DNA from: an uncultured Clostridia bacterium
GTDB lineage: Bacteria; Bacillota; Clostridia; Oscillospirales; Oscillospiraceae
DNA length: 34,945 nucleotides
Direction: 5' to 3'
Assembly: GCA_947058885.1 (NCBI GenBank)
Contig: CAMSIF010000013.1
Coordinates: 1-34,945 of the forward strand
Of the stretch, positions 6,077-34,945 are shown in pieces. Within the stretch, counting starts at the first letter, position 1; every line of letters begins with the position of its first letter. A program made the translations under genes and the position numbers. Under the pieces are notes generated by a model. The model was not told where the DNA came from, did not search any database, and was given only the letters and a program-made list of their open reading frames with translations.

Positions 6077-7606
6077 TTGAAAAACAGTATGAAACGTAAC
6101 GAAACCGTAAACGTTATTGGCGCGGTGACTCTGGTGACGCTTTTCGCCAAGCTGTTGGGCATCGTCCGGGAGGCCCTCCAGGCCCGGGCCTTCGGCACCA
6201 TGGTGCAGGCTGACCTCTATACCACGGCCAATAATAACACTATCTATCTCTTTACTACCGTGGCTTACGCCCTTTGCATTGCCGCTGTGCCCATTCTCAC
6301 CCCCCGGCTGCGCCGGAACAGAAAGGAAGGCTACGCTGCCGCCGGGAATTTAATTGCCATCACAGTCCTTCTGAGCGCGGGAGTGGCGGCGTTGTGGATT
6401 GGCGCGACCTTTACCCCCTGGGCGGCCTCCCTCTGGGACGGCGCGGCGGCGGAGAGGGATCTTTTGGCCTCCTATATGCGCGTCATGGCCCTTACGCTGC
6501 CGGTGATTGTACTGACGTACCTGCTGGTAGCCCTGTTTCAGTCCATGGAACACTTCGTTTTGCAGGGCAGCATGTCCATCCCCTACAACCTGGCCCTTAT
6601 CCTTTTCCTGGGGCTTTTCGCCGGGAAACTGGGCGTGGAGGGCTATGTGGCGGCGGTGGCCCTGGCGTGGCTGCTACAGCTGGGCATGACGATACCTTAT
6701 ATGGTAAAGGAACGGTACTTTCCCCGTTTGAAACTGGACCTGCGGGCGGACTACGTCAAGACCTTCTTCCGCACCGCTGTGGTGACGGTGCTGACCACCT
6801 CTATTTTCCTGTTCTGCTACTTGCAGGACTCCAGTATGACGGCACAGCTCACGGGCAGTCCGGTGAGCGCGTTCTACTACGCGGACAAGCTCTTTACCCC
6901 GCTGACCACTACGCTTATTTATAGCATCAGTACGGTGCTCTTTCCCAAATTCAGCCAGGAGTACGCCGCAAAGAGCGGCAAACAATATCAGCGGTATATT
7001 TGGGGGGTGCTGCGCAGTACCCTGCTGCTGATTCTGCCGGTTTCCGCCGTGCTGGCGGCCTTCGGCACGCCCATCGTCCAAGTGCTCTTTGAGGGCGGCA
7101 ATTTTGGCGCGGAATCTACCGCATCTACCGGCGCGATTTTCACGATCTACGCCCTCTCCATGGCAGGGTTCTGCACCCTGGACCTGCTGAGCAAGGCGTA
7201 CTACACCATGGAAAAAACCTTGACGCCTTTACTGGTCAACGCCGGAATTCTGGCCTGCAACTGGGGGCTCAACCGGCTTCTGGGTCCCAGGTGGGGCGGG
7301 GCGGGGCTGGCCGCCGCCACGGCGGTCTCCATCACCGCCGGAGGTGTGGCGATAGCGGTTCTCTTTCTGTGGAAGGCCGGGGATATCCGCGTGGGACCTC
7401 TCGTCAAATGTATCGGGGCTGCCCTGGTCACCGGCAGTGCGCTTCTGTGCGCTTCGGATTTGTTTTTGACGGGCGCGGAGGGAAAGCTCCTGCTGGTGGT
7501 TAAATGCCTGGGGCTGGGAGCGGCGGCGGCTGTGCTGTATGTGCTGCTGATGCTGCTGACCCGGCAGAGGGATTTTATGGAGCTGGTAAAACGCTATAAA
7601 AAGTAG
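6077..7606 (+). CDS. murJ: lipid II flippase MurJ (MviN family)
   Basis: MurJ moves the peptidoglycan precursor lipid II across the membrane. The product has 509 residues and about 14 hydrophobic segments, beginning VIGAVTLVTLFAKLLGIVREALQARAFG, where the conserved Arg/Glu of the first helix are visible. I chose the TTG at 6077 because AAGGAAAGG lies 6 nt upstream. The ATG at 6089 is an alternative 4 codons later with poorer spacing. It is the last gene of the DUF5693-csaB-murJ set and is followed by a terminator. MurJ paralogues in such operons may move other lipid-linked glycans, so the substrate is not certain. Confidence 0.9.
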   Translation: MKNSMKRNETVNVIGAVTLVTLFAKLLGIVREALQARAFGTMVQADLYTTANNNTIYLFTTVAYALCIAAVPILTPRLRRNRKEGYAAAGNLIAITVLLSAGVAALWIGATFTPWAASLWDGAAAERDLLASYMRVMALTLPVIVLTYLLVALFQSMEHFVLQGSMSIPYNLALILFLGLFAGKLGVEGYVAAVALAWLLQLGMTIPYMVKERYFPRLKLDLRADYVKTFFRTAVVTVLTTSIFLFCYLQDSSMTAQLTGSPVSAFYYADKLFTPLTTTLIYSISTVLFPKFSQEYAAKSGKQYQRYIWGVLRSTLLLILPVSAVLAAFGTPIVQVLFEGGNFGAESTASTGAIFTIYALSMAGFCTLDLLSKAYYTMEKTLTPLLVNAGILACNWGLNRLLGPRWGGAGLAAATAVSITAGGVAIAVLFLWKAGDIRVGPLVKCIGAALVTGSALLCASDLFLTGAEGKLLLVVKCLGLGAAAAVLYVLLMLLTRQRDFMELVKRYKK

Positions 7607-10315: not shown

Positions 10316-12391
10316 ATGCTCTACAGAGAAGCAGATGAATTGAATACCTACCTCTTCCACGAGGGAACGGCGATCAGCGCCTACGAGTACATGGGAGCGC
10401 ACGCCGTCACCCGCGACGGAGTTGACGGCTACATGTTCCGCGTGTGGGCGCCCCGGGCCCAGGCCGTCTCCGTGGTGGGTGATTTTAATTTCTGGGACGG
10501 AAGCGCCCACCCCATGAAGAAAATTACGGACGGTATCTGGGAGTGCTTTATGCCTGGCGGACGGGTATATGACGCCTATAAGTTCGCCGTTACCGGCGCG
10601 GACGGCAAGATCCGCTTCAAGGCGGACCCCTATGCGTTCCACGCGGAGACGCGCCCCGGTAATTCCAGCAAACTCTATACCCTGGGCGGCTACCAGTGGG
10701 GCGACAGCGCCTGGCTGGACTACCGCCGCCAGCATCAGGTGTACAGCGAGCCGCTGAACATTTACGAAGTACATCTGGGCTCCTGGCGCAGGGGCAAGGA
10801 CGGCGAGTTTATCGGCTATTACGACCTTGCCAAGCAGCTGGCCTCCTATGTCAAGGAGATGGGCTTCAACTATATCGAGCTGCTGCCCATTACCGAGTAC
10901 CCCTACGACCCCAGCTGGGGCTACCAGTGTACCGGGTATTTTGCCCCTACCTCCCGCTACGGTTCCCCTGACGACTTCATGTACTTTGTTGACCAGATGC
11001 ACCAGGCGGGCATCGGTATTATCCTCGACTGGGTGCCCTCCCACTTCTGTAAGGACGCCCACGGCCTCTATGAGTTCGACGGCAGTCCCTGCTATGAGTA
11101 CGCCGACCTGCGCAAGGGCGAACACGCCGCGTGGGGAACCCGGGTGTTTGACTACGCCCGGCCCGAGGTGAAAAGCTTCCTGCTCTCCTCCGCCGCTTTT
11201 TGGCTGAAGGAGTACCATATTGACGGCCTCCGGGTGGACGCGGTGGCGTCTATGCTCTATCTGGACTACAACCGTCAGGACGGCGAGTGGGTCCCCAACC
11301 AGCACGGCGGAAAGGAACATCTGGAGGCTATTGAATTCCTCCAGGCTCTCAACAAGACCGCCTTTTCCGTCAATCCGGACGTGCTGATGGTTGCGGAGGA
11401 GTCCACCGCCTGGCCTCTGGTAACCAAGCCCGCAGATATCGGCGGACTTGGCTTTAACCTCAAGTGGAACATGGGCTGGATGAACGACATGTGCCATTAC
11501 CTGAAAATGGACCCCTGGTTCCGCCAGGGCAACCACAAGGATATTACCTTCTCCATGTTCTACGCCTTTTCCGAGAACTATGTCCTCCCCCTCAGCCACG
11601 ACGAGGTGGTTCATATGAAGGGTTCTGTTCTGGGTAAGATGCCTGGAGAATCCTGGCAGCGGTTTGCCGGCGTCAGGGGCTTTTACGCTTACACCATGGC
11701 CCATCCCGGCAAGAAGCTGAGCTTCATGGGCGTGGAGCTGGGAACAGAGGAGGAATGGGCCTTTGACCGGGAACTGAACTGGAAGCTGCTGGAGAACGAG
11801 GAGAACCGCCAGCTGCATCAGTATATCAAGGATATCAACCATTTTTACCAGAAGGAGCGCGCCCTATGGGAGGTGGACTTCAACTGGGAGGGCTTCCAGT
11901 GGCTGGTGCCCGACGACAACAGCAACAACGTGGTGGTGTTCCTGCGCCGGGACAAGTCCGGCAACGAGCTGGTCTGCGCCATCAATTTCAGCCCCAACAC
12001 CTATGAGGACTACCGCTTCGGCTGCACCCCGGTACGGGAATACGTGGAGGTCTTTAACTCCGACGCCCCCGCCTACGGCGGAACCGGCGTGGCCAACAGC
12101 GAGCCCTGCAAGGTCAGCTGGACGCCCTCCCACGGCAGCGAATCGTCTGTGGCTATCCGCATCCCGCCCTTCGGCGCGGTGTTCTTCAAGGGGCAGGGGA
12201 AGCTGCGGGCTAAGCCGAAGGCCAAGGCCCCTGGTGTGGAGACGGTAAAACCCACCCGGAAGTCCAAGACTCAGACGGCGGCAGCGCCGGAGGCCCCCAA
12301 GAAGCGGGGCAGAAAACCCAGCGTCCAAACGCCTGCGGAGGAACAGAAGCCTGTGCGCGGCAGAAGGAAAAAAACTTCTGCCGCTGAATAA
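10316..12391 (+). CDS. glgB: 1,4-alpha-glucan branching enzyme with basic C-terminal tail
   Basis: GlgB makes the alpha-1,6 branch points of glycogen. The 691-residue protein has a CBM48 domain near residues 35-130 ([20 protein letters not shown]), the GH13 barrel and a C-terminal beta domain. Catalytic residues are visible as D308 in GLRVDAV, E361 in MVAEES and D429 in SHDEVVH. The start is set by GGAGGA at 10305-10310. Unusually, about 67 residues (625-691) extend past the enzyme as a Lys/Pro/Ala-rich tail with KKRGRKPS and RGRRKK, resembling AT-hook or H1-like basic tails. glgB heads the glgBCDAP set; glgC follows within 20 nt. Confidence 0.95.
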
Positions 12392-12408
12392 AAGAGAGGA
12401 TGACAGCT

Positions 12409-13617
12409 ATGAAAAAAGAGTGCATCGCAATGCTCCTGGCCGGCGGGCAGGGCAGCCGTCTTTACGTGCTGACCAGCAACGTGGCAAAACCCGCAGTACC
12501 CTTCGGCGGCAAATACCGCATCATCGATTTCCCCCTGTCCAACTGCACCAACTCCGGCATCGACACCGTGGGCGTCCTCACGCAGTACAAGCCGCTGGAG
12601 CTCAACAGCTACATCGGCTCCGGCCAGCCCTGGGACCTGGACCGCATGGACGGCGGCGTCCACATTCTGCCCCCCTATATGCAGGAGGGCGATAAGGGTA
12701 CCTGGTACAAGGGTACCGCCAACGCCATCTATCAGAACATCGGGTTCGTGGACATGTACGACCCGGACTACGTCGTGATCCTCTCTGGCGACCACATCTA
12801 CAAAATGAATTACGGCAAGATGGTGGAGGCCCACAAGAAGGCGGGCGCCGCCTGCACCATCTCCGTCCTGGAAGTGCCCTGGTCTGAGGCTCCCCGCTTC
12901 GGCATTATGGCTGTGGACGAGGAGGATAACATTGTGGAGTTCCAGGAGAAGCCCAAGGAGCCCAAGAGCAACCTCGCCTCCATGGGCATCTACGTGTTCT
13001 CCTGGAAGAAACTGCGGGAGTACCTGGTCAACGACGAGGCGGACCCCAACTCCAGCAACGACTTCGGTAAAAATATCATTCCCAACTTCTTGGCGGCCGG
13101 AGAGAAAATGATTGCCTACCGCTTCGACGGATATTGGAAGGACGTGGGCACCCTGGAGAGCCTCTGGGACGCCAATATGGATATGCTTTCCCGGGGCGAC
13201 CTGGATCTGCTGGAGGACAGCTGGCCCATCTATGCCCGCCTTCCCAGCGAGCCCCCCGCCTTCATCGGCAAGAGCGCGCTGGTGGAACACAGCGTGGTTA
13301 CCCAGGGCTGTGAGATCAGCGGTACGGTGCTCAACTCCGTTTTGTCCCACGGAGCCCGTGTGGAGGAGGGCGCGGAGGTTTCCTACTCCGTGCTGATGCC
13401 CGGCGTTACCGTGAAGCGGGGCGCTGTGGTCCGCTACGCCATCCTGGGCGAAAACTGCCAGGTGGAGGCCGGCGCCATGGTGGGCGGCTCTCCCGAGAGC
13501 TGCGACCCGGACAAGTGGGGCGTCACCGTACTGGGTCCCGGCGCGTCCGTAGGTCCCGGCGAGACAATCGCCCCTAATTCGATGCTCAATCGTGACCATA
13601 AGGAGGTATCCAGATGA
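12409..13617 (+). CDS. glgC: glucose-1-phosphate adenylyltransferase, catalytic subunit GlgC
   Basis: GlgC makes ADP-glucose from glucose-1-phosphate and ATP, the committed step of bacterial glycogen synthesis. The 402-residue protein has the nucleotidyltransferase motif [12 protein letters not shown], then [20 protein letters not shown], and [13 protein letters not shown] left-handed beta-helix domain forms the C-terminus. I prefer the ATG at 12409 because the AGAGAGGA ribosome binding site ends at 12400 and overlaps the earlier in-frame ATG there. The stop overlaps glgD by 4 nt (ATGA), so the two subunits are coupled. Confidence 0.95.
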
Positions 13618-14732
13618 AAGGCCTGCACGGAATTATCTTCTCCTACGAGAAGCACAACGACCTGCGTGAGCTGACTGACCACCGTATGCCCGCGTCTGTT
13701 CCCTTCGCGGGACGCTACCGCATTATTGACTTTATCCTCAGCGGCATGGTCAACGCCGGAATCACCGACGTGGGCGTAGTACTCCACGGCAACTACCAGA
13801 GCCTTCTGGACCACCTGGGCACCGGCAAGGACTGGGACCTCAGCCGCAGTCACGGCGGCCTGCGCCTGCTGCCCCCCTTTGCCTCTGAGCAGGTTCGGGG
13901 CAGCAACGGCAGATTCCGGGGCAAAATGGAGGCCCTGGCTGGTGTGCGCTCCTATCTGGAGGGCATCCGTCAGACCCATGTGGTCCTGGCTGACAGCGAC
14001 CTCATTATCAATATTCCCCTCCAGGACGTCTATCAGGCCCATATGGACTCCGGCGCGGACATCACGGCCGTCTGTACCAGTGACCTGACGGAGACCGAAG
14101 ACGCCACATACTTCCGCCTGGACGGCGAGGGCCGGGTGAAGGAAACACTCTTCCCCCTGAACAACCCCGCCGGATGCCATCGCGCGCTGGAAATCTATAT
14201 TCTCTCCAAACAGTTGCTGCTGGAGCTGGTGGACGAGTGCATGAGTCAGGATAAGGTCAGCCTGCGGGGCGCGGTCCTCCAGGCCAAGGCCGGCTCGCTC
14301 CATATTCAAAGCTACGTCTGGGATGGCTATGCCGCGCAGGTCCGCACCCTTAAAAGCTACTACCTGCGTTCCATGGAGCTGCTGGACCCCGCCATCCGCC
14401 GGGAGATTTTCCACCCCCAGCGTCCCATCCATACCAAAGAGCGCAACGAGGCCTCCACATACATCGACCCCGCCGGCACCTGCTGCAACTGCCTGGTGGC
14501 CGACGGATGCACCATTGAGGGTACGGTAGAGAATTCCATCCTGTTCCGGGGTGTCAGCGTGGCAAAGGGCGCCGAGGTGAAAAACTGTATCCTCATGCAG
14601 GACGTCGTTATCAGCCGGGACGCGGTGCTCCACCACGTCATCGCGGATAAAAATGTGGCGATTATGGACTCCCGCACGCTGATGGGCCATGACAAATACC
14701 CCATGGTAATCGCCAAGGACAGCAAGGTGTAA
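13614..14732 (+). CDS. glgD: glucose-1-phosphate adenylyltransferase regulatory subunit GlgD
   Basis: GlgD pairs with GlgC in Firmicutes to form an active hetero-oligomer with altered kinetics. The 372-residue protein keeps the family fold ([30 protein letters not shown] and a C-terminal beta-helix). In place of the GGxGxRL pyrophosphorylase motif it has [13 protein letters not shown], which is why I call it the non-catalytic subunit. AAGGAGG precedes the start inside the end of glgC. It is followed by 138 nt containing a separate promoter for glgA. Confidence 0.95.
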
Positions 14733-14814
14733 TAAAACCGGAGGGCGGTCAAGCCCCGCTTTATCCAATATCCCCAATTTTCGGCGGTACCGCAGTAGGA
14801 ATATGGCGGAAACC

Positions 14815-14843
14815 TTTACTTTCCAACATTTTTGAGGTATACT
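14815..14843 (+). promoter_or_regulatory. promoter of glgA
   Basis: TTTACT (14815-14820) and TATACT (14838-14843) are 17 nt apart, with the glgA start only 27 nt beyond. glgA-glgP can therefore be read separately from glgBCD. Confidence 0.75.
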
Positions 14844-14870
14844 GCTACTATCGTAAAGGAGGTTTTTCCT

Positions 14871-16337
14871 ATGAAAATCCTGTTTGCCGCGTCCGAAGCA
14901 GTTCCCTTCTGCAAAACGGGCGGCCTGGCCGACGTGGCCGGAAGCCTTCCCCAGGCTCTCGCCAAGGCCGGCAATGAGGTGGCGGTTATTCTGCCCCTGT
15001 ATCAGCGCGTGTCGGACAACTGGAAGGATCAGATGTCCTTTGTCTGCAACATTGAGGTTCCATTGGGCTGGCGCAGGGTCTACTGCGGCATGTTCCGCCT
15101 GGACAAGGACGGCGTGATCTGGTACTTTGTTGACAACGAGTATTACTTCAAGCGCGACTCCCTCTATGGGCACTATGACGACGGCGAACGCTTCGGGTTC
15201 TTCTCCCGGGCCGTCATCGCTCTCCTGCCCGCCATGCAGTTTATGCCCGAGGTGATTCACTGCAACGACTGGCAGACTGCCCTGGTGCCTATCTATTTGA
15301 AGGACGAGTGCGTCCGCTGGAGCGAGGTCCGGGGCATCAAGACCGTGTTTACGGTGCATAATATTGAGTATCAGGGCCGCTACGGCAAGGAAACGCTGGA
15401 GGACCTGTTCGGTCTGGCTCCCGGCTGGTTCACAGACGGTACCATCGCGATGGACGGCGATGTGAATCTGCTCAAGGGCGCTCTGATGACCTGCGACGCC
15501 ATCACCGCCGTCAGCCCCACCTACGCCCAGGAGCTTCGCTACGACTACTATGCCCACGGCATGGAGAGCGTGATTCGTCTCAATGCCGGGAAGGTCTATG
15601 GCGTGCTCAACGGCATTGACATGGAGCGTTACAACCCCGCCAGCGACCCCAGAATTGCCGCGAATTACAGTGTCCTTTCCAAGACGGGCAGGGCTGCCGC
15701 CAAGGATACCGTCACCCCTGGAAAGGCCCAGAATAAGGCCCACCTACAGGAGGAAATGCACCTGAATTTAGCTCCGGACGTTCCTGTTATCGGTATTATC
15801 AGCCGCTTGGTCAGCCACAAGGGCCTGGATTTGGTGTGCAAAGTGTTTGACCAGATCATGTCCCTCAATTGTCAGTTCGTGGTCCTGGGCAGCGGAGACT
15901 GGAACTATGAACAGTTCTTTGAGGCTAAGCTGGGGCAGTATCCGGGCCGTATGGCCCTGTACCGGGGCTACAACGAGGCCTTGGCTATGGATATCTACAG
16001 CGGGGCGGACCTGTTGCTGATGCCTTCCAAGAGCGAGCCCTGCGGCTTGGCGCAGATGATAGCCATGCGCTACGGTACGGTGCCTATCGTCCGGGAGACC
16101 GGCGGCCTGAAGGATACCGTCCACCCCTACGAGGCTTGGTGCGGCGCAGGCAACGGCTTCACCTTTGCCGACTACAACAGCGGAGACATGTTCTATGTCA
16201 TCCGTCAGGCGGTGGACCTCTACTTCAACAAGCCCAACGATTTCCAGCAGCTGCGAAAGGCCGGCATGACCGAGGACTTCAGCTGGGACCGCAGCGCAGG
16301 AGCCTATAACGAAATCTACCGCACGATCTGTTCCTAA
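14871..16337 (+). CDS. glgA: glycogen synthase (ADP-glucose)
   Basis: GlgA extends alpha-1,4-glucan chains from ADP-glucose (GT5 family). I chose the start at 14871 after AAAGGAGG; it gives 488 residues opening MKILFAASEAVPFCKTGGLADV. The K15-x-G-G motif binds ADP-glucose. The C-terminal Rossmann domain has PVIGIISRLVSHKGLDLV and the KSEPCGLAQMIAMRYGTVPIVRETGGL donor-site region with the conserved Glu. Length is normal. It sits between glgD and glgP, with its own promoter upstream and a long hairpin downstream. Confidence 0.96.
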   Translation: MKILFAASEAVPFCKTGGLADVAGSLPQALAKAGNEVAVILPLYQRVSDNWKDQMSFVCNIEVPLGWRRVYCGMFRLDKDGVIWYFVDNEYYFKRDSLYGHYDDGERFGFFSRAVIALLPAMQFMPEVIHCNDWQTALVPIYLKDECVRWSEVRGIKTVFTVHNIEYQGRYGKETLEDLFGLAPGWFTDGTIAMDGDVNLLKGALMTCDAITAVSPTYAQELRYDYYAHGMESVIRLNAGKVYGVLNGIDMERYNPASDPRIAANYSVLSKTGRAAAKDTVTPGKAQNKAHLQEEMHLNLAPDVPVIGIISRLVSHKGLDLVCKVFDQIMSLNCQFVVLGSGDWNYEQFFEAKLGQYPGRMALYRGYNEALAMDIYSGADLLLMPSKSEPCGLAQMIAMRYGTVPIVRETGGLKDTVHPYEAWCGAGNGFTFADYNSGDMFYVIRQAVDLYFNKPNDFQQLRKAGMTEDFSWDRSAGAYNEIYRTICS

Positions 16338-16353
16338 TCAACTGGCGTGAGAG

Positions 16354-16396
16354 CAGGGCGGGGGGTATCCCCTGGATACGCCCCCGCCCTGTCTTT
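16354..16396 (+). terminator. long hairpin between glgA and glgP (weak terminator or attenuator)
   Basis: CAGGGCGGGGG (16354-16364) pairs with CCCCCGCCCTG (16381-16391), and TATCC/GGATA extends the stem inwards. The tail GTCTTTATCC is only weakly U-rich. glgP starts 38 nt later without a clear promoter, so partial read-through or RNA processing is likelier than full termination. Confidence 0.6.
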
Positions 16397-16428
16397 ATCC
16401 TGTATCTAATAGAAAAGAGGAGTTTCCT

Positions 16429-18861
16429 ATGGAAAAATTTACGAAGGAGTCCATGAAGCAGGCGATCAGCGATAAGCTCCGCCTGAATTTCGGCTGCACG
16501 GAGGAAGAGGCTACAGAGGCCAATATGATGAAGGCCTGCGCCATGGTCCTCCGGGACCGCATGAGCTCGCAGTACGTCGAGTCCCGGATGAAAGTCCGCA
16601 AAAAGCAGATGCGCCGGGTTCACTATATGTCCATGGAGTTCCTCATGGGCCGCAGCCTCATGAAAAACGCCTACAATCTGGGCGTTCTCGAACCGATGAA
16701 GGCGGCTATTGAGGAGATGGGCTTCAAGTCCGCCAGCATTTTTGACATGGAGCCCGACGCGGGCTTGGGCAATGGCGGCCTGGGCCGTCTGGCCGCCTGC
16801 TATCTGGACAGTCTCACCACGCTGGAGATTCCCGCCCGGGGTTACTCCATCTGCTACGAGCTGGGCCTGTTCCGCCAGAAAATCGTGGACGGCCAGCAGC
16901 TGGAGCTCCCCGACAACTGGAAGGAGCAGGGCGACGCCTGGCTGGTACCCAAGCCTGACGAGGTGGAGGAGGTCCACTTTGGCGGAACCCTCCGGGAATT
17001 CTGGGACGGCGACCACCTGCATATTGTAAACGAGAACTATACCAGAGTGCTGGCAATTCCCTGCGACATGTCTATCGCAGGCTACGACACGGCCCACACC
17101 AACTCCCTGCGCCTCTGGGACGCCAAGAGCCCCACGCCGATTGACATGAGCAAGTTCAATCAGGGTGACTACCTGCGGGCCGGCGAGGAGCAAGCCATGG
17201 CGGAGGTCATCGCCAAGGTGCTCTACCCCGAGGACAATCACTACGAGGGCAAGAGTCTCCGGTTGCGCCAGCAGTACTTCTTCGTGTCCGCTACCGTGCA
17301 GTCTATCGTGCGCAAGCACATCCAGAATTACCATACCGTGACCAACTTCCACGAGAAGAATGTCATTCAAATTAACGATACCCACCCGGCCCTGGTTATC
17401 CCCGAGCTTATGCGCATCCTTATGGACGATGCCGGACTGAGCTGGGATGAGGCCTGGAATATTACCGTCAACTCCGTTGCCTACACCAACCACACCGTAC
17501 TGGCGGAGGCTCTGGAGCGTTGGCCTCAGGAGCTGGTGCAGACCCTCCTGCCCCGCATTTGGCAGATTATCTGCGAGATTGGCCGCCGCTGGCAGGCGAA
17601 GGTTACCGACTTCTATCGCGGCGATGAGTCCAAGGTGAAGAATATGGCCGTCATCTGGGACGGCGAGGTCCGTATGGCCAACCTGTGTATTGCTGGCGGC
17701 ATGGCCGTCAACGGCGTATCCGCCCTCCACAGCGATATTTTGCGCAACGACCTCTTCAAGGACGCCTGCACCATGGAGCCGGAGAAGTTTAAAAACGTCA
17801 CCAACGGTATCGATCACCGCCGCTGGCTGGCGGAGATCAACCCCGGCTTGGATAGTTTGATTTGCGAGCTGACCGGCGGCAACGACTATCTGCGCCACCC
17901 CGGCACGGCTCTGCCTAAACTGGAGAAATATGCCGGTGACAAGCAGGTCCTCCAGCGGCTGGAGGAAATCAAACACGCCAATAAGCTGGAATTTGCCAAG
18001 TTTGCCAAGAAGGCACAGGGCTTCATTCTCAATACGGACGCGATTTTTGACGTTCAGGCCAAGCGGCTGCACGAGTACAAGCGGCAGCTGCTTAACGTGA
18101 TGAACATCACCTATATGTATCTTCAGCTCCGGGATAATCCCAACATGGAGATGCAGCCCCATACCTTCCTCTTCGGCGCGAAGGCCGCTCCGGGCTACGC
18201 GGTGGCAAAACGGATTATCCGTCTCATCAACTCCCTGGCGGACCAGATTAATCACGACCCTGTTTGCAAGGACAAACTGCAAGTCTTCTTTATGGAGAAC
18301 TACCGTGTGTCCATGGCGGAAGTGCTGATGCCCGCCAGCGAGGTCAGCCAGCAGATTTCTACTGCCGGTAAGGAGGCCAGCGGCACCGGCAACATGAAGT
18401 TTATGATGAACGGCGCGCTGACCGTAGGCACATTGGACGGCGCCAACGTAGAGATGCACGAGGTGCTGGGCGATGCGAACATGTTCCTTTTCGGCCTGCG
18501 GACGGAAGAGGTCAAGGAGATGCGCGACACCGGCTATAATCCCTACCGCCTCTACAGCCGCGACGGGATTCTGCATCGGGTGCTGGACCAGATTAGTCAG
18601 GGCTTCCGGGACGGTATCCGGTATGACGATCTGGTGGAGCGTCTTCTGTTTGGCACCGGTTCCCCCGCTGACGAGTATATGCTTTTGGCGGACTTCTCCT
18701 CCTACTGTGAGGCCGAGCGGCGCATGATCGCCACCTATGGAGACCGTGTAAAGTGGAATCAGATGTCGCTTTACAACATTGCGAGGTCCGGGATTTTTGC
18801 CGCTGACCGATCTATCGCCGATTACGCGGATAGGATTTGGCACGTACCCTATAAGAAGTAA
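16429..18861 (+). CDS. glgP: glycogen/maltodextrin phosphorylase
   Basis: GlgP releases glucose-1-phosphate from glycogen ends using pyridoxal phosphate (GT35). The 810-residue protein has the usual length. It carries MEFLMGRSLMKNAYNLG early, EPDAGLGNGGLGRLAACYLDS, HEKNVIQINDTHPAL, and the PLP-lysine motif EASGTGNMKFMMNG with the lysine at about residue 657. GAGGAG precedes the start. It ends the glycogen gene set, which thus encodes both synthesis and mobilisation, and a strong terminator follows. Confidence 0.97.
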   Translation: MEKFTKESMKQAISDKLRLNFGCTEEEATEANMMKACAMVLRDRMSSQYVESRMKVRKKQMRRVHYMSMEFLMGRSLMKNAYNLGVLEPMKAAIEEMGFKSASIFDMEPDAGLGNGGLGRLAACYLDSLTTLEIPARGYSICYELGLFRQKIVDGQQLELPDNWKEQGDAWLVPKPDEVEEVHFGGTLREFWDGDHLHIVNENYTRVLAIPCDMSIAGYDTAHTNSLRLWDAKSPTPIDMSKFNQGDYLRAGEEQAMAEVIAKVLYPEDNHYEGKSLRLRQQYFFVSATVQSIVRKHIQNYHTVTNFHEKNVIQINDTHPALVIPELMRILMDDAGLSWDEAWNITVNSVAYTNHTVLAEALERWPQELVQTLLPRIWQIICEIGRRWQAKVTDFYRGDESKVKNMAVIWDGEVRMANLCIAGGMAVNGVSALHSDILRNDLFKDACTMEPEKFKNVTNGIDHRRWLAEINPGLDSLICELTGGNDYLRHPGTALPKLEKYAGDKQVLQRLEEIKHANKLEFAKFAKKAQGFILNTDAIFDVQAKRLHEYKRQLLNVMNITYMYLQLRDNPNMEMQPHTFLFGAKAAPGYAVAKRIIRLINSLADQINHDPVCKDKLQVFFMENYRVSMAEVLMPASEVSQQISTAGKEASGTGNMKFMMNGALTVGTLDGANVEMHEVLGDANMFLFGLRTEEVKEMRDTGYNPYRLYSRDGILHRVLDQISQGFRDGIRYDDLVERLLFGTGSPADEYMLLADFSSYCEAERRMIATYGDRVKWNQMSLYNIARSGIFAADRSIADYADRIWHVPYKK

Positions 18862-29121: not shown

Positions 29122-29162
29122 AAGAAGTGGCGTAGTCGAGAGGCTACGCCGCTTCTTTCTTG
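29122..29162. terminator. bidirectional-looking hairpin at the recombinase remnant 3' end
   Basis: A 14-bp stem with one wobble pairs 29122-29135 with 29144-29157 and is followed by TTCTT on the plus strand. It overlaps the stop region of the recombinase fragment. Confidence 0.6.
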
Positions 29163-29494
29163 GCCTGGGGATTGGGGAGAATACCAATAAAGTTATAAAT
29201 GATATCAACCTGTTGGGAGCGGTGGCCGCTGGACTTGTCCGGGGCGTGTATGTTGATACGCTCGATAAACTCATTAACAATGGCCGGGGTAAGCGTGTCA
29301 ATCTCGCTGTACTTCTTCACCAGGGCGATAAACTGCGCCGCGTTCACGGTTTGGGTCTGCTCCTTATCAAGTTCAGCGTGGGGGGCCTTGGCCTTTTCGG
29401 TCATTGTGCTCTGTTCCTCCTCGTAGGACTTGGACAGCTTAGAAAACCGCTCGTCTGAAAGTTTCCCCGATACATTATCTTCAGAGAGCTTTTG
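29144..29494 (-). pseudogene. C-terminal remnant of a large serine recombinase (DUF4368 region)
   Basis: The frame encodes only the tail of a Tn4451/TnpX-type large serine recombinase. In order it has EDNVSGKLSDERFSKLSKSY, a linker, FIALVKKYSEIDTLTPAIVNEFIERINIH, and the final QQVDIIYNFIGILP typical of the DUF4368 domain. An ATG at 29404 exists inside it, but homology continues upstream for about 29 codons until an in-frame TGA (29497-29495). The catalytic resolvase domain and zinc-ribbon region are missing. It is a broken gene, marking the left side of a former mobile element next to the signalling and RiPP cluster. Confidence 0.85.
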
Positions 29495-29661
29495 TCAAGG
29501 GTAAAGCTTATAAATTCCTGTCTACCATACCGCTATGAAGGTCATACAGGAATTCTACTTCAGTATTCATCTTAAAAAGAGAAGTTACGATTTAATTTCT
29601 CCACCCGTTCATATGCATAGGACCGTTTATGACAGGCTGCATCGAACAAAAGGCATAGCCC
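29495..29661. other. junction region between recombinase remnant and propeptide promoter, no gene seen
   Basis: AT-rich DNA without a supported gene. An inverted repeat AATTCCTG/CAGGAATT (29513-29520 and 29547-29554) is visible. A short reading frame starting at 29535 runs through the promoter and the propeptide gene in another frame and looks accidental. Confidence 0.5.
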
Positions 29662-29697
29662 ATCGTTCTGTGTTAGTGGAAAATAACACAAAACGAT
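29662..29697. promoter_or_regulatory. 36-bp dyad operator ahead of the propeptide gene (copy 1)
   Basis: ATCGTTCTGTGTT, a 10-nt spacer and AACACAAAACGAT form an inverted repeat with one mismatch in 13-bp arms. The right arm plus ATGG (29685-29701) is identical over 17 nt to the copy at 30988-31004. Its centre lies at about -54 of the predicted transcription start, a position suited to an activator next to the -35 region. Confidence 0.85.
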
Positions 29698-29721
29698 ATG
29701 GCATTTATGCCGGCTTGGGTG

Positions 29722-29727
29722 TACATT
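29722..29727 (+). promoter_or_regulatory. -10 element of the propeptide promoter
   Basis: TACATT preceded by GGGTG starts 21 nt after the last base of the shared 17-nt motif. No good -35 box is present, consistent with dependence on a bound activator. Confidence 0.5.
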
Positions 29728-29757
29728 CTTTTCATCAAAAGAAAGGAAGGTTTCCCC

Positions 29758-29946
29758 ATGAAAAACAAACTGGCTGCGCTGCTGGCAGCACTGCTGCTCT
29801 GTCTCTCCCTGCTCCCCGCTCAGGCCCTGGCCGCCTCGGACCCGGACCCCGTTCCACCGCCCGCTGTATCTGAAAACAGGGAAACTCTCCGGCAGACGCC
29901 ACCGACCCCGCCGGAGACTCCAGATCTTGATGACGCTGGGCATTAA
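29758..29946 (+). CDS. secreted propeptide, candidate quorum-sensing signal precursor
   Basis: This 62-residue product starts after AAAGGAAGG. A Sec signal peptide is clear: KNK, a Leu/Ala-rich core (LAALLAALLLCLSLL) and a likely cut after ALA at residue 25. The remaining 37 residues are Pro/Thr/Asp-rich and end TPDLDDAGH, with no recognised domain. It is convergent with the HTH-TPR regulator gene, and the two stop codons overlap at TTAA. Its promoter carries the same dyad as the RiPP operon. By analogy with Phr, PapR and other RRNPP propeptides, a C-terminal fragment could be the pheromone. A truncated secreted protein is the alternative. Confidence 0.75.
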   Translation: MKNKLAALLAALLLCLSLLPAQALAASDPDPVPPPAVSENRETLRQTPPTPPETPDLDDAGH

Positions 29947-30890
29947 TAGGGAAGCTCCATATTTAAACGTTCTTTCATCTCCTTTTTCAAAATTGCGCGA
30001 TCATGCTCATTGTTGATTGCCGCATAGATATAGTATGCTTGGCAATAAAGCGCCCTACATCTATCTATATCTCCTGTATAGAAATAGCATCCGCCCAAGA
30101 GGTCTAGGAGTCCCGGTAAAAACTGATAATGCCCGTACTCCACGCACACCCCCCTACCCAGTTCTGCCACTTCAGCGGCCTCAGCATAGCGTTCCTCCAT
30201 AACAAGCTCACGGGCATAATTTTGGGCGATTAATGTCACTTGTCCAGCGTAACGGTTTAGTTCTTTATAATGCTTTTGCACATATTTAAGCAATTGACGG
30301 TAAATGTCAATTGCTTTTTTTCGATTTCCCATCATGTCGTAAGATATCGCAATCTGGTTAATGAGTTTTGTTTCTTCCATGCTGTACCAGCCCAGATTTA
30401 TCTCCTCCAAATCAATCCTGGGGACTGTCAGCCTAAGAGCTGCCATCAGCATATCCAGGCGCTCTTCAGGGGTATATGGTCCCTCAGGCCTACCAAAGGT
30501 GGCTCTACAACTAAGTATATACTGCTGTGTGATACGGTCATCTTTATCTATCAGCTTCTCCAATTGTTCCAGCTTCTGTAGGCCCGCCGCCCGGATGGCC
30601 GACCGGTCTTTGTTGCTAGCACGTTTAAAACGAATTGAATCTGCAAGGATTTCTTCTTGTAGATTACTGATATCCATCTCGTTCTGGCTCAGCAGGGCAA
30701 AATAGCGGTCATCGGGCAAGCCCAGACGTTGAAGCAGGGCATTAATGCGGTTGCGGGAGGGAGTCTGTTTGCCGTTTTCCAGCCGGGAGAGGGTGATGGG
30801 TTCGCAGATCCCCTCACACAGCTGCTCCTGGGTCAGCCCCAGCTCCAGGCGCCGGTTTTTGATGTATTCGCCAAGAAAAATTTCTTGCAT
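29943..30890 (-). CDS. RRNPP-type regulator: XRE helix-turn-helix plus TPR-like domain
   Basis: I place the start at 30890 after AAAGGAGG; it gives 315 residues opening MQEIFLGEYIKNRRLELGLT. The HTH_XRE domain covers about residues 7-60, with LTQEQLCEGICEPITLSRLENGKQ as the helix-turn-helix core. The rest is helical with TPR-like repeats at about 175-205 (INQIAISYDMMGNRKKAIDI), 216-250 and 256-295. This is the layout of Rgg, PlcR and NprR regulators that bind imported peptides. The gene is convergent with the propeptide gene and divergent from the RiPP operon. The DNA is visibly less G+C-rich than the chromosome to the left, suggesting transfer. Peptide binding is inferred, not shown. Confidence 0.88.
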   Translation of the reverse strand: MQEIFLGEYIKNRRLELGLTQEQLCEGICEPITLSRLENGKQTPSRNRINALLQRLGLPDDRYFALLSQNEMDISNLQEEILADSIRFKRASNKDRSAIRAAGLQKLEQLEKLIDKDDRITQQYILSCRATFGRPEGPYTPEERLDMLMAALRLTVPRIDLEEINLGWYSMEETKLINQIAISYDMMGNRKKAIDIYRQLLKYVQKHYKELNRYAGQVTLIAQNYARELVMEERYAEAAEVAELGRGVCVEYGHYQFLPGLLDLLGGCYFYTGDIDRCRALYCQAYYIYAAINNEHDRAILKKEMKERLNMELPY

Positions 30891-30926
30891 GGGACAGCCT
30901 CCTTTTATTGTACAAGGAATATTTCT

Positions 30927-30955
30927 ATTATGAGCTGTCAGCCGCGCCATGTCAA
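30927..30955 (-). promoter_or_regulatory. sigma-A promoter of the HTH-TPR regulator
   Basis: On the minus strand a perfect TTGACA (30955-30950) and CATAAT (30932-30927) are 17 nt apart. The divergent operator at 30965-31000 begins only 10 bp upstream, so the regulator may also affect its own transcription. Confidence 0.85.
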
Positions 30956-30964
30956 GACCAGGTT

Positions 30965-31000
30965 GTCGTTTTATGTTATTTTCCAGGAACACAAAACGAT
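30965..31000. promoter_or_regulatory. 36-bp dyad operator ahead of the RiPP operon (copy 2)
   Basis: GTCGTTTTATGTT, a 10-nt spacer and AACACAAAACGAT match the copy at 29662-29697 in arm length, spacer length and sequence. The 17-nt string AACACAAAACGATATGG at 30988-31004 is identical. It sits between the regulator promoter and the RiPP precursor promoter. Confidence 0.88.
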
Positions 31001-31024
31001 ATGGGAGTTCCGGTCAGAATATGG

Positions 31025-31030
31025 TATCTT
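31025..31030 (+). promoter_or_regulatory. -10 element of the RiPP operon promoter
   Basis: TATCTT begins 21 nt after the last base of the shared motif, exactly as in the propeptide promoter. A consensus -35 is absent. Transcription would start near 31037. Confidence 0.5.
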
Positions 31031-31102
31031 ATAGCCACAGCAGGGGACAAGAGAGATACATAAGCCCCGATGCTGAATTTTTAAACATAAGGAGAAACTA
31101 AA

Positions 31103-31216
31103 ATGGAAGTTATCGCTGCGAAGAAGCCCCTCTCTGTGCTTGCCCACGCCAGAGACATCAATAATAATTGCAAGGGCTGCAGACCGCCGATCCCCCCTGC
31201 TAATGCCTGCGATTAA
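31103..31216 (+). CDS. Cys-containing RiPP precursor peptide (37 residues)
   Basis: A small gene preceded by AAGGAG 8 nt upstream of ATG, directly ahead of a radical SAM/SPASM maturase. The N-terminal half (residues 1-21) is leader-like, with MEVIAAKKPLSVLAHARD. The C-terminal core is NCKGCRPPIPPANACD, with cysteines at 23, 26 and 36. The core has no Ser or Thr, so lanthionine rings are excluded; radical thioether links from Cys to Lys, Arg, Ala, Asn or Asp carbons are the likely product (sactipeptide or ranthipeptide style). The PPIPP stretch is unusual. I do not recognise a named precursor family. A strong hairpin follows before the maturase gene. Confidence 0.8.
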   Translation: MEVIAAKKPLSVLAHARDINNNCKGCRPPIPPANACD

Positions 31217-31225
31217 ATCACAATT

Positions 31226-31257
31226 GGGAATAGGGTTCCCGTAGGAGCCCTATTCCC
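31226..31257 (+). terminator. strong hairpin between RiPP precursor and maturase genes
   Basis: GGGAATAGGGTTCC (31226-31239) and GGAGCCCTATTCCC (31244-31257) form a 14-bp stem with one G-U pair and a CGTA loop. No U-tract follows, so it is best read as an mRNA-stabilising or partial-termination element that keeps precursor mRNA in excess over enzyme mRNA. Confidence 0.75.
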
Positions 31258-31305
31258 ACCCTTCATTAGATTTTGTGACAGCTTTCAATAGAGAGGAGAG
31301 ATACT

Positions 31306-32550
31306 ATGTACACCCTGCCCGGCTACGTCGAGTACTACGAGGAGGACGGCGCGATCTATATCACGTCCAAACTTTTGCAAAACAAGGTTAAAATCACCGA
31401 AAAACCGCTCCAGGAGGAGTTCTACGCCATTGTCCGCTGCGGCGGATGCCCCGACATCTCCACCCCGCTCACCCGCTTTCTCCACGAGCAGGAGCTGCTG
31501 CTCAACAGCGAGGAGATAACGCAGGCGCTAAAGGAAGCCGTATCCATACTGAACGACACCCTTCTATTGACCATCATGCCCACCGAGGGCTGCAACTTCC
31601 GCTGCCCCTACTGCTACGAGGAACATACCCCCATTTCCATGAGCCGGGCGGTGCTGGACCGCATTCAGGAATATATTGCGGAACAAGCCCCACGCTTCGG
31701 GCTAATTCAAATCAATTGGTTCGGCGGCGAGCCGACGCTCTGCAAGGATACTATTCTGGAGACCAGCGAGCTGATTCAATCCCTCCAGAGGGAGAACTCC
31801 TTCCTATATAGCTCCGCCATGACCACCAACGGCTATCTGCTGAACGTAGAGAACTTCAAGGAGTACTATGCGGCGGGAATCATCAATTACCAGATCACTC
31901 TGGACGGCTGGAACCACGACCAGACCCGCCCCCACGTGTCCGGCCGCGGAACGCTGCAAACGATTCTAGACAATTTGACCGCCATCTCCGCTCTGCCGGA
32001 GGAGTACCAGTTTCAGATTCTTCTGCGCCACAATATCCTGGCGGGGGACCGGGATTTTAGCTGGTACGACAATCTATATAAACTCTTTGGCGCAGACAAG
32101 CGGTTCACTGTGATGGTCCGCGCCGTAGGCAACTGGGGCGGCGAGTCTGTGAAAACACTGAATTTGCTAGAGGGGGAGCAGCAGGAACAGCTTCTATCGG
32201 AGCATACCGCCTATTTAGACAAAGTTGGTATGCAGGGCGGCGGCCAGGATGCGCCGTTTTCGGGCATCTGCTACGCCAGCTATCCCCATGGCTTTGTGTT
32301 CCGACCCAGCGGAAAAATTGAGAAATGTACCATCGCCCTGGATCACCCCAAGAATATGGTCGGGTATGTGGACCCGGACAAGGGCGTTGTAATAAGGGAC
32401 GAGGCGAACCGGCAGTGGTGTACCTTTGATTTAAAGCCGGAGTGCCAAGGCTGCCCAGACGTTCTGAAATGCTTCAATATGCGCTGCAAAAGGCACGTTA
32501 TGGACGGCGTAGAGACAGCCTGCCCCTATATGCCGCGCGAAGCGCGTTAA
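31306..32550 (+). CDS. radical SAM/SPASM peptide maturase
   Basis: The enzyme is expected to install carbon-linked crosslinks in the adjacent precursor. The 414-residue protein has an N-terminal region of about 85 residues that may be a precursor-binding (RRE-like) domain. The radical SAM core follows, with CNFRCPYC (C96, C100, C103) and FGGEPT near 140. A SPASM domain has C322, C341, C372, C380, C383, C389, C394 and C406, enough for two auxiliary 4Fe-4S clusters. GAGAGGAG precedes the start. Such enzymes make thioether or C-C links in RiPPs; which one is made here cannot be told from sequence. Confidence 0.93.
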   Translation: MYTLPGYVEYYEEDGAIYITSKLLQNKVKITEKPLQEEFYAIVRCGGCPDISTPLTRFLHEQELLLNSEEITQALKEAVSILNDTLLLTIMPTEGCNFRCPYCYEEHTPISMSRAVLDRIQEYIAEQAPRFGLIQINWFGGEPTLCKDTILETSELIQSLQRENSFLYSSAMTTNGYLLNVENFKEYYAAGIINYQITLDGWNHDQTRPHVSGRGTLQTILDNLTAISALPEEYQFQILLRHNILAGDRDFSWYDNLYKLFGADKRFTVMVRAVGNWGGESVKTLNLLEGEQQEQLLSEHTAYLDKVGMQGGGQDAPFSGICYASYPHGFVFRPSGKIEKCTIALDHPKNMVGYVDPDKGVVIRDEANRQWCTFDLKPECQGCPDVLKCFNMRCKRHVMDGVETACPYMPREAR

Positions 32551-32654
32551 GGCCCAGAAAAAATTTCCCCCGGCGTCAACACCCAGCCCCTCTTCATACG
32601 TCCTATCAGCAGACGCGCATACAGTGCGGTCATTTAGTAAAGGAGGAAACGATT

Positions 32655-34280
32655 ATGTCGTACTATCTGAAAAAATTCTGGAGACAAAATCTGCTGGTCA
32701 TTCTCGCCCAGATCGTCATGTATGGCCTGGCCGCTGGCAGCAGTCTTATTAGAATGCAGGTTGTGCAGAGCATCATAGCGTGGGACTTCCGCCAGTTCCT
32801 GTATTGGTCGCTGGTGACTTTCTCCGTAATGAGCCTCAACTCTGTTGTCGCTGCCGTGGAGGCGATCCTACGTGCCCGCGCCACCCGGGCTATGAACGGC
32901 CAGGTGCGGCGGGATATGGCCGCCACGCTGCTGGAGCGGAGCCACCAGGAATACCACGCCCAGGATACGGGGGAGTATCTCTCCTGGTTTACCACCGGCG
33001 TGGATCAGATTGACGGAAACGGGTGGTATTCCTTCTTCGGCATTACCTCCTACATGGCCCAAATCGTATGCAGCGTAGTGGCGCTGGCCTCCGTCCACTG
33101 GTCCCTGGTGCTGGCTTCTCTGCTGATGGCTGTCGTGATGGTTACCGGTCCGAAGCTGTATGAGAAAAAGATGGAGCAGATGAGCGAAGTCTGCGCCCAG
33201 GGGCAGGCCGCCGGCGTCAGCGGAATAAAGGATATGCTGAGGGGCTATGACGCTCTGCGTTTTTTCGACCGGTCCTCCCGGTTCAGCCAAGGCATCAGCC
33301 AGGCCAACGACAAGATGGAACGCCCCTTCTATCAGAGAAGCTGTATGTCCGCCATTTTCTATGGTGGTCTCGGTATTGCCAACATAACATGCCAGATCCT
33401 TGTGAACTGCTTGGTCGCTTTCCTTTCCATTCAGGGCGTCATCATCCAGTCTGCTCTATCTGGGTGCGGAACGCTGTGCGGCAATGTTGCCAATGGGGTG
33501 ACCCAGTTGGGATTTCAACGCATGTGCCTCGTCAACAGCAGGCCCTACTTCGCCCGCATCACGGTCCACGACAGCGGCAAGGAGCCGGAGCGTCCCCAGG
33601 GTCCGGAGCCGGTGGAGAAGTCCATCTCCGTGGAGCATGTGGACTTCGGCTACGGGGAGAAGAAGGTGCTGGAGGACCTGACCCTCACCTTCCGGAAGGG
33701 GAAGAAGTACGCCCTCACCGGCCCCTCCGGCTGCGGAAAATCCACCCTTTTGAAGTTGATTCTGGGCTGGCTGCCAAACTACCGGGGGGCTATCCGCTTC
33801 GACGGAAAGGACGCCCGGGACTACACCCCGGAGCAGCTCCAGCAGCAGATGAGCTACATCGCCCAGGACGTGTATCTCTTCAACACCACCATCCGGGACA
33901 ACATCACATTAGGGGAGGACTTCACGGACGCCCAGCTGGAGAAGGCCCTCCGGGACAGCGCCCTGGCGGGGGACCTTAAGAACATGCCCCTGGGTCTGGA
34001 CACCCCGGTGGGGGAGGAGGGGGCCAGCCTCTCCGGCGGGCAGCGCCAGCGGGTGGCCATTGCCCGGGCGCTGATCCACAACCGGTCCATCCTCCTGGTG
34101 GACGAGGGCACCAGCGCCCTGGACCAGAAGAACGCCAGCATCGTGGAGGAGAGTTTGCTGGCGAACCCGGAGCTGACGTTGCTGCTGGTGAGCCACCACC
34201 TGTCCCCGGAGCGCCGGAGGCAGTTCGACGGCGTGTACCACCTGGATCCGGTAGCCGCTGGAAGCAGTGAGCAATTATGA
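32655..34280 (+). CDS. ABC exporter (fused membrane and ATPase domains), probable RiPP exporter
   Basis: I chose the ATG at 32655 because AAAGGAGG lies just upstream; frames further left run into the maturase gene. The 541-residue half-transporter has a six-helix-type membrane domain to about residue 290 (first helix LLVILAQIVMYGLAAGSSLI). The ATPase has Walker A GPSGCGKST (356-364), signature LSGGQ (459-463) and Walker B ILLVDEGTSALD. There is no N-terminal C39 peptidase domain, so leader removal must occur elsewhere. The ATPase half is more G+C-rich than the membrane half, a possible mosaic. A terminator follows at 34385. Confidence 0.92.
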   Translation: MSYYLKKFWRQNLLVILAQIVMYGLAAGSSLIRMQVVQSIIAWDFRQFLYWSLVTFSVMSLNSVVAAVEAILRARATRAMNGQVRRDMAATLLERSHQEYHAQDTGEYLSWFTTGVDQIDGNGWYSFFGITSYMAQIVCSVVALASVHWSLVLASLLMAVVMVTGPKLYEKKMEQMSEVCAQGQAAGVSGIKDMLRGYDALRFFDRSSRFSQGISQANDKMERPFYQRSCMSAIFYGGLGIANITCQILVNCLVAFLSIQGVIIQSALSGCGTLCGNVANGVTQLGFQRMCLVNSRPYFARITVHDSGKEPERPQGPEPVEKSISVEHVDFGYGEKKVLEDLTLTFRKGKKYALTGPSGCGKSTLLKLILGWLPNYRGAIRFDGKDARDYTPEQLQQQMSYIAQDVYLFNTTIRDNITLGEDFTDAQLEKALRDSALAGDLKNMPLGLDTPVGEEGASLSGGQRQRVAIARALIHNRSILLVDEGTSALDQKNASIVEESLLANPELTLLLVSHHLSPERRRQFDGVYHLDPVAAGSSEQL

Positions 34281-34460: not shown

Positions 34461-34945
34461 TCACCGCGCCCCCTGCTGGCGGTCACGATTTTTCTCTTTC
34501 TCTGTCACGCCCAAAATCCGCTCCACGTTGTTTTTGGCGGTGAGCAGTTCTATCATTTTTTCTCGCGTTTGCTTATACTCTGGATACCGCTTTTTGTTTT
34601 CCGCCTCCAACTTGGCATACTCCTGTTTCAGCGATTGTATGGACGGCAGCTTCTTCAAACCGAGGGAATCAAAGTACCGCTTCGCCGCTTGACAGGCCGT
34701 GATTTCACTGCTATGCTGTTCATAAAAATTTTCTCTTTTCCTGCCCGTCAATTTCCGATATTGCGCGTAAATCTCTCGTGTTTTGCCGTAAGCGCCGATG
34801 TGCTTTTGCAGTTCGGAAATGTCCTTCATTCTTGCACTGGCAGCTTTCGTCCGGTCGGATAAATCGTTGAATTTCTGAACCGCCGCATCACAGACTTTCT
34901 CCAATTCTCTGAGGTCAGTCAGCCCGTTTTCCTGCAAGTATATAA
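34461..34945 (-). CDS. relaxase/mobilization protein, C-terminal part (runs off the window)
   Basis: The frame stays open to the right edge, so this is the 3' part of a longer gene; a TTG at 34937 is not a real start. The visible 160 or so residues are highly charged and helical (LQENGLTDLRELEKVCDAAV, KLTGRKRENFYEQHSSEI, SLKQEYAKLEAENKKRYPEY). They match in style the C-terminal region of relaxases on Clostridia mobilisable and conjugative elements. The catalytic Tyr and His motifs lie outside the window. It supports a mobile-element context for the RiPP cluster. Confidence rests on pattern recall, not on a catalytic motif. Confidence 0.75.
   Translation of the reverse strand, partial: IYLQENGLTDLRELEKVCDAAVQKFNDLSDRTKAASARMKDISELQKHIGAYGKTREIYAQYRKLTGRKRENFYEQHSSEITACQAAKRYFDSLGLKKLPSIQSLKQEYAKLEAENKKRYPEYKQTREKMIELLTAKNNVERILGVTEKEKNRDRQQGAR

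Follow-up and report, generated by a model that had tools for sequence, protein, structure and literature searches.

A candidate PlcR/PapR-like pheromone switch coupled to a radical SAM peptide operon in an uncultured member of the Oscillospiraceae

Contig CAMSIF010000013.1 of an uncultured Oscillospiraceae bacterium (C13 of assembly GCA_947058885.1; 2.40 Mb in 178 contigs, 75.8% complete), analysed here over its entire length of 34,945 nt and hereafter called the window, carries between positions 29758 and 34280 the genes for a secreted propeptide, a regulator with helix-turn-helix (HTH) and tetratricopeptide repeat (TPR) domains, a short precursor of a ribosomally synthesized and post-translationally modified peptide (RiPP), a radical S-adenosylmethionine (SAM)/SPASM maturase and an ATP-binding cassette (ABC) exporter. 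We propose, at a probability of roughly 0.7, that these genes constitute a PlcR/PapR-like, self-amplifying pheromone circuit which activates the radical SAM RiPP operon. A preliminary description of this DNA had placed the five genes within 4.6 kb, and all five were indeed found as open reading frames (ORFs), those for the precursor, maturase and exporter forming one row adjoining the receptor gene. The G+C content of the window, 57.4%, is not streptococcal. The elements of the locus are as follows.

29658..29701, + strand: dyad operator ahead of the propeptide gene (core 29663-29696; no mismatch to the dyad pattern on either strand)
29722..29727, + strand: -10-like box TACATT belonging to the propeptide promoter (starts at position 26 beyond the dyad core; a -35 fits at 4 of 6 bases at best)
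29758..29946, + strand: propeptide gene (62 amino acids, Sec-type signal; candidate PapR-like pheromone precursor)
29943..30890, - strand: gene of the PlcR-like HTH-TPR regulator, RRNPP superfamily (315 amino acids; convergent to the propeptide gene)
30927..30955, - strand: promoter-like site of the regulator gene itself (TTGACA at 30955-30950, 17 bp, CATAAT at 30932-30927)
30961..31004, + strand: another copy of the dyad operator, in front of the RiPP operon (core 30966-30999; one mismatch)
31025..31030, + strand: -10-like box TATCTT belonging to the RiPP promoter, with TGG before it (distance from the dyad equal to that at the propeptide promoter; a -35 fits at 3 of 6 bases at best)
31103..31216, + strand: RiPP precursor gene (37 amino acids, MEVIAAKKPLSVLAHARDINNNCKGCRPPIPPANACD; without family match)
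31306..32550, + strand: radical SAM/SPASM maturase gene (414 amino acids; family and profile matches, cysteine alignment)
32655..34280, + strand: ABC exporter gene (541 amino acids; Pfam ABC_membrane and ABC_tran)

The gene set, the dyads, the promoter geometry and their recurrence in relatives could be read directly from the DNA. A single motif had initially been suggested to link the propeptide and RiPP promoters, and the link turned out to be stronger than claimed. Two copies of the 16-mer ACACAAAACGATATGG exist in the host assembly when up to two mismatches are permitted (at 29686 and 30989; none for a reversed-pattern control). It represents the right half of a previously unnoticed dyad, TCG-N6-GTTA-N8-TAAC-N4-AACGA, so that the single-motif operator was dropped in favour of this dyad. 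With one mismatch permitted, the dyad pattern is confined in the host assembly to the two window sites. Scanning 30 loci (416 kb) that had been chosen by their regulators, with a half-site derived from the window, yielded 19 matches, corresponding to 15 distinct sites plus offset copies, and none in the reversed sequence. The sites do not conform to the PlcR box TATGnAnnnnTnCATA; the conserved operator is the dyad given above.

When 14 sites, comprising 13 dyads and the half-site of locus L033 (loci of relatives bear L numbers and their genomes G numbers), were aligned on the dyad, leaving out L088, L097 and L116, the pattern TA...T was present at bases 26-31 after the dyad in 13 of them, compared with a mean of 0.28 of 14 over the other 53 offsets. 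The next-best offset, 1, reached 7 of 14 and arises from the TATG of the operator itself, and the one exception at offset 26 is the propeptide promoter of L078 (CATTCT). Where a -35 element would be expected, the 13 full dyads agree with TTGACA at only two to four of six bases. Outside this count, L088 fits (TATAAT at bases 26-31), as does L087, which has a half-site only (TATCCT), and L116 does not. Because the -35 regions are weak and the -10 lies at a rigid distance from the dyad, we read the layout as probably that of an activator. In four loci (L034, L035, L080 and L083) inspection by eye revealed different inverted repeats ahead of the propeptide instead of the dyad, which suggests diverged operator specificity among paralogues. 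L097, whose regulator relative is 36% identical, has a long perfect palindrome of yet another kind directly ahead of its propeptide (position 6978).

The regulator had been assigned to the RRNPP-type HTH-TPR proteins, an assignment that can now be refined. Its N-terminus matched HTH_3 and HTH_31 above their cutoffs; RNPP_C scored 20.8 with the window protein alone, below the cutoff of 26.5, and was matched by all 18 members of the regulator family at E<=0.01. A profile of 18 regulator relatives compared with PDB sequences gave one full-length match, PlcR (2qfc, over residues 1-301, E 3.6e-19). A further 21 PDB sequences reached E<=0.1; 19 of them, including ComR, matched within residues 1-107 near the HTH domain and two matched the TPR stretch 171-212. 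Both the HTH plus TPR architecture and an adjacent propeptide gene, judged as secreted by its hydrophobicity, were thus found, and the full-length match indicates from sequence that the regulator is PlcR-like rather than Rgg-type.

The earlier suggestion of a secreted, PapR-type propeptide adjoining the regulator held up likewise, as Sec-type ORFs recur at the regulator ends of relatives. Their signals were judged by hydrophobicity and not with a signal-peptide program. With filters that were fixed after a first inspection of the loci, a propeptide-like ORF was found at 13 of 27 regulator places, against 0.005 expected per place; 12 of these 13 share the 4-nt overlap of stop codons that joins the propeptide and regulator genes in the window. 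A laxer filter detected a convergent Sec-type propeptide at the regulator end of 17 of 23 loci (the window, L032, L034-L038 and L078-L093), the distant relatives L039, L040, L049-L051 and L094-L097 standing outside this count. Of these propeptides, that of L084 shares about 100 nt with the regulator frame. At the C-terminus of the window propeptide, the residues ETPDLDDAGH can be aligned with tails of the E-x-P-D/E type in several relatives, and the pattern E-x-P-D/N/E...H/Y recurs in several, not all, of 14 aligned tails. Tandem regulator pairs occur in L082 (7591-9432), L038, L084 and L085, with a propeptide only behind the second regulator.

Co-occurrence of propeptide, regulator and RiPP genes in relatives, the absence of which had been named beforehand as one half of a refuting condition, was observed as two whole sets, in G706 (L082) and G723 (L090), and in part at L032, L033 and L036. 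L082, from the same genus, encodes a maturase of 59% identity, an exporter of 57% and two tandem regulators of 47-48%; the corresponding values for L090, from another genus, are 58%, 51% and 52%. Both loci hold a propeptide, two dyads and a precursor with a window-like start. An ARAGORN call of a tRNA-His inside the L090 maturase was taken as false. L032 combines a regulator, a propeptide and two dyads with a different precursor, two radical SAM ORFs and an MFS-like gene; one of the radical SAM ORFs was unmatched to that of the window (judged by eye, as was the MFS-like gene) and the other is 56% identical over 267 amino acids, without the SPASM part. In L033 a half-site, a precursor-like ORF, a maturase of 35% and an exporter of 28% are present, the regulator being cut by the contig end, and L036 retains a regulator, a propeptide, a dyad and an exporter of 52%.

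The window maturase contains the three radical SAM cysteines (96, 100 and 103) and seven SPASM cysteines (322, 341, 380, 383, 389, 394 and 406), all invariant in seven aligned proteins. Its best NCBIfam model is TIGR04463 (140.2 bits versus a curated cutoff of 525), which is likewise the best model for the maturases of L082, L090 and L032, the cutoff being reached by none of the four. By profile, the nearest solved structure is 5wgg, which we take to be the SCIFF maturase CteB. The precursor gave no family match in Pfam and NCBIfam model searches, and assignment to the Clo7bot or CcpM peptides was dropped as the scores lay far under the cutoffs. Its start, MEVIAAKK, resembles those in L082 (MKVIAGKK), L090 (MEVVESKR) and L036 (MEVLTEKN). 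A C39 peptidase domain was not among the Pfam matches of the ABC exporter.

Relatives of the regulator were found in 6 of 200 genomes of the family at 1e-20, in 9 of 25 of the genus at 1e-30 and in 9 of 42 of the genus of G066 at 1e-30, and the L032 regulator used as query detected 3 of 291 class genomes at 1e-30 (own or centre genome counted throughout). The maturase is rare: 5 of 400 family genomes matched at 1e-60, only G000 and G706 closely, a set of 300 family genomes yielded its own genome only at 1e-50, and 1 of 42 genomes of the genus of G066 matched at 1e-40. Among 391 class genomes, ten matched at 1e-30, the nine others having 27-35% identity; the stretches around eight of these nine (L041-L048) lacked both an exact dyad and a regulator match at 1e-6. 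An Oscillospiraceae metagenome-assembled genome carries a maturase relative of 36%. Maturase-like genes of G221, G825 and G249 were excluded from the system as the surrounding stretches had no regulator match. Viral contigs contained no relative of the maturase, the regulator or the regulator alignment. In a plasmid collection no regulator relative was detected, and 57 records had a maturase match, all below 60% identity. Five records of a phage collection matched the regulator; these are unannotated human faecal contigs and may be bacterial DNA.

The dyad, with up to one mismatch, was present in 7 of 21 regulator-bearing genomes versus 0 of 23 genomes without a regulator at 1e-30, the reversed pattern giving one match, in G234. 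A longer form of the pattern, allowing up to two mismatches, occurred in 6 of 255 family genomes and its reverse in none; at up to one mismatch it was confined to G000, G066, G020 and G218. The last of these, whose site is the one new strong dyad among the 255 genomes, had been missed by the earlier regulator searches, and its dyad (L135, 8978) adjoins a regulator of 52% identity and a 92-amino-acid Sec-type propeptide ending in EMPDGEGESF. TA...T stands at base 26 in either direction from this dyad, and on the side away from the propeptide it leads to an ABC exporter 25% identical to that of the window. Dyads with two mismatches in G171 and G105 were treated as background, the surrounding stretches having no regulator match.

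Based on these features we infer a sequence of events comprising export, trimming, import, binding, activation, crosslinking and export of a product. The propeptide would be exported by the Sec system and trimmed outside the cell, after which a short fragment from its C-terminus, most probably from the region of ETPDLDDAGH, would be re-imported by an oligopeptide permease and bind the TPR domain of the regulator. The peptide-bound regulator dimer would then occupy the dyad in place of a -35 element and recruit RNA polymerase to the -10 at its fixed spacing, activating the operon of precursor, maturase and exporter as well as its own propeptide gene, the latter as a positive feedback. Crosslinking of the 37-amino-acid precursor by the radical SAM/SPASM enzyme would follow, and the ABC protein would export the product, probably a signalling peptide or, by analogy with the radical SAM RiPPs (RaS-RiPPs), a bacteriocin-like one.

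The role of the product is where the best surviving alternative lies, namely that the maturase generates a second signal instead of an antimicrobial RiPP, or that the cluster makes no product at all. L036, in which a 45-amino-acid ORF (10826-10689, - strand) joins the leader-like start to a SPASM-like tail, seems to have had most of its maturase deleted while the switch and exporter were retained, and the missing SPASM part of the related radical SAM ORF in L032 points in the same direction. In the window, by contrast, all genes are open and the radical SAM and SPASM cysteines are retained, and we consider this alternative improbable.

Slightly less probable still is a circuit of the same parts with the opposite sign, in which the dyad-bound regulator would keep the propeptide and RiPP promoters repressed until released by the peptide, as in PrgX or Rgg3. 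Activation and repression are both known modes in the RRNPP superfamily, and the dyad does abut the promoter. However, target promoters without a good -35 element, together with the rigid distance from dyad to -10, suit an activator, and the closest solved relative, PlcR, is one.

The propeptide might also be a small secreted protein that is no signal, merely co-regulated by a regulator sensing another ligand, such as a surrounding imported peptide or the RiPP. The variable propeptide tails would be compatible with such a role, and the host assembly gives nine oligopeptide-binding protein matches (one containing an internal stop), which would admit other peptides. This we regard as a lesser prospect, given that the propeptide is coupled to the end of the regulator gene across loci, that it has its own dyad promoter, also in L078 and L079, which have no maturase match, and that the E-x-P-D/E tail recurs. 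A chance neighbourhood of unrelated genes, to which the recombinase tail and relaxase-like fragment at the cluster's edges and the draft state of the assembly in 178 contigs might point, is contradicted by the presence of the complete set together with its switch in two further genomes and is highly improbable.

Several observations weigh against a pheromone-activated RiPP circuit as the reading of this locus. By the lax filter, six of the 23 loci lack a propeptide (L037, L086, which lies at a contig end, L089, L091, L092 and L093), and that of G218 does not overlap the regulator gene, lying 156 bp apart from it. The dyad is missing from 14 of the 21 regulator-bearing genomes, some of them carrying different inverted repeats in its place. 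Conversely, single-mismatch dyads occur in G020:C2 without a regulator in 18 kb and in G706:C17 without one in 6 kb, in both cases without TA...T at bases 26-31, and the latter was treated as background. The regulator's own promoter-like site, which speaks for the activator reading, fits 11 of 12 bases, and those of five relatives 8 to 11 of 12, L082 being the weakest; as each is the best of many placements in 130 bp and the -35 score of the target promoters is the best of five, the comparison is not like for like. The structure model of the regulator alone was poor (predicted local distance difference test score of 58.5), too poor for a fold search. The precursors are alike only at their starts and their cysteine counts vary (3, 3 and 1), so that the 37-amino-acid precursor gene stands as initially described and its cysteines do not as a conserved trait; the single-cysteine precursor of L082 leaves open the possibility of non-thioether crosslinks. 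The G020:C2 dyad (position 12703; L116, 8704) is near-perfect and lies ahead of a secreted-looking protein of 543 amino acids.

Two further adverse points concern the regulator family as a whole. Other members adjoin other exported genes: the divergent neighbours, judged by eye, are solute-binding lipoproteins in L079, lipoproteins in L087 and an unknown protein in L078, L087 like the other two having no maturase match. Since these members adjoin other exported genes, the RiPP link appears to be one branch of the family's associations. Moreover, the RiPP-linked regulators do not form one clade. In an 18-row regulator tree the five RiPP-linked rows need three changes, a number that the well-supported branches also impose; it could be made up of one gain and two losses, and 36 of 500 label shuffles gave an equally low count. 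The regulator module and the RiPP operon would therefore have come together or separated repeatedly. It is possible, and we put it forward only tentatively, that the PlcR-like receptor, the convergent Sec propeptide and the dyad-to--10 promoter form a portable switch which has been coupled repeatedly to different exported functions, including a non-thioether RiPP class, and whose diverging operator (and probably peptide) specificity lets several private channels operate side by side within a cell.

Control of radical SAM RiPPs by streptococcal Rgg/SHP pairs, where SHP denotes a short hydrophobic peptide, is already known for streptide and tryglysin (available parts of PMC13361665 and PMC8092268), and the window resembles these systems in having a cytosolic peptide-sensing regulator beside a signal gene together with a precursor, a radical SAM maturase and an exporter. 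It differs in its PlcR-like receptor, in a signal gene that overlaps convergently and encodes a 62-amino-acid Sec-type propeptide rather than a short hydrophobic peptide, in a dyad operator with a fixed-spacing -10, and in precursors without a family match. PlcR of the Bacillus cereus group is described as an activator with a 16-bp box, with a -10 downstream of active boxes and with mostly exported targets (PMC2464732, in part). The window shares with PlcR/PapR the -10 downstream of the operator, besides the best full-length solved match of its regulator; its dyad is wider, with the GTTA-N8-TAAC core at a fixed distance, and no RiPP operon is named for PlcR in the available parts of that report. 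The RRNPP_detector survey, confined to complete genomes, lists 196 biosynthetic gene clusters (BGCs) from 11 families, neither Oscillospiraceae nor Ruminococcaceae among them, and its main text contains 'radical SAM' 0 times (PMC10075063); similar to the window are its candidate BGCs regulated by quorum-sensing systems, with an RRNPP pair within the BGC and RiPPs as the most frequent kind. The maturase is akin to those of TIGR04463, differing in that the curated cutoff was not reached. No such system is named in the available parts of PMC12700828, PMC9765709 and PMC7425212, nor was one recognized in the open-licence PMC literature at the level of listings and abstract beginnings. A variant of pheromone-controlled radical SAM RiPPs with a PlcR-like receptor, Sec propeptide and dyad is thus one that we did not find described.

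Immediately left of the cluster, an apparent remnant of 86 amino acids (29147-29404, - strand) matches DUF4368 (1.9e-27), which we take to be the tail of a large serine recombinase. Beyond the exporter gene, 665 bases remain before the contig end, and an ORF cut at that end (34464-34943, - strand) is 28-33% identical to stretches of three Subdoligranulum/Vescimonas records of the plasmid collection, one of them annotated as relaxase, a hint of a mobile element at the right edge. Integration linked to a tRNA gene was dropped as an explanation, the window holding no tRNA. An ordinary row of glycogen-like ORFs (branching enzyme, ADP-glucose synthases, synthase and phosphorylase, judged by eye) occupies 10316-18861 on the + strand.

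If the proposed circuit is correct, a synthetic C-terminal peptide should switch on the production of a modified peptide from a cluster that is possibly silent in culture, and peptide-pheromone control of radical SAM peptides would extend beyond the streptococci. The rigid promoter signature, a dyad followed by a -10 at base 26, would furthermore let such circuits be found from DNA alone, as exemplified by G218.

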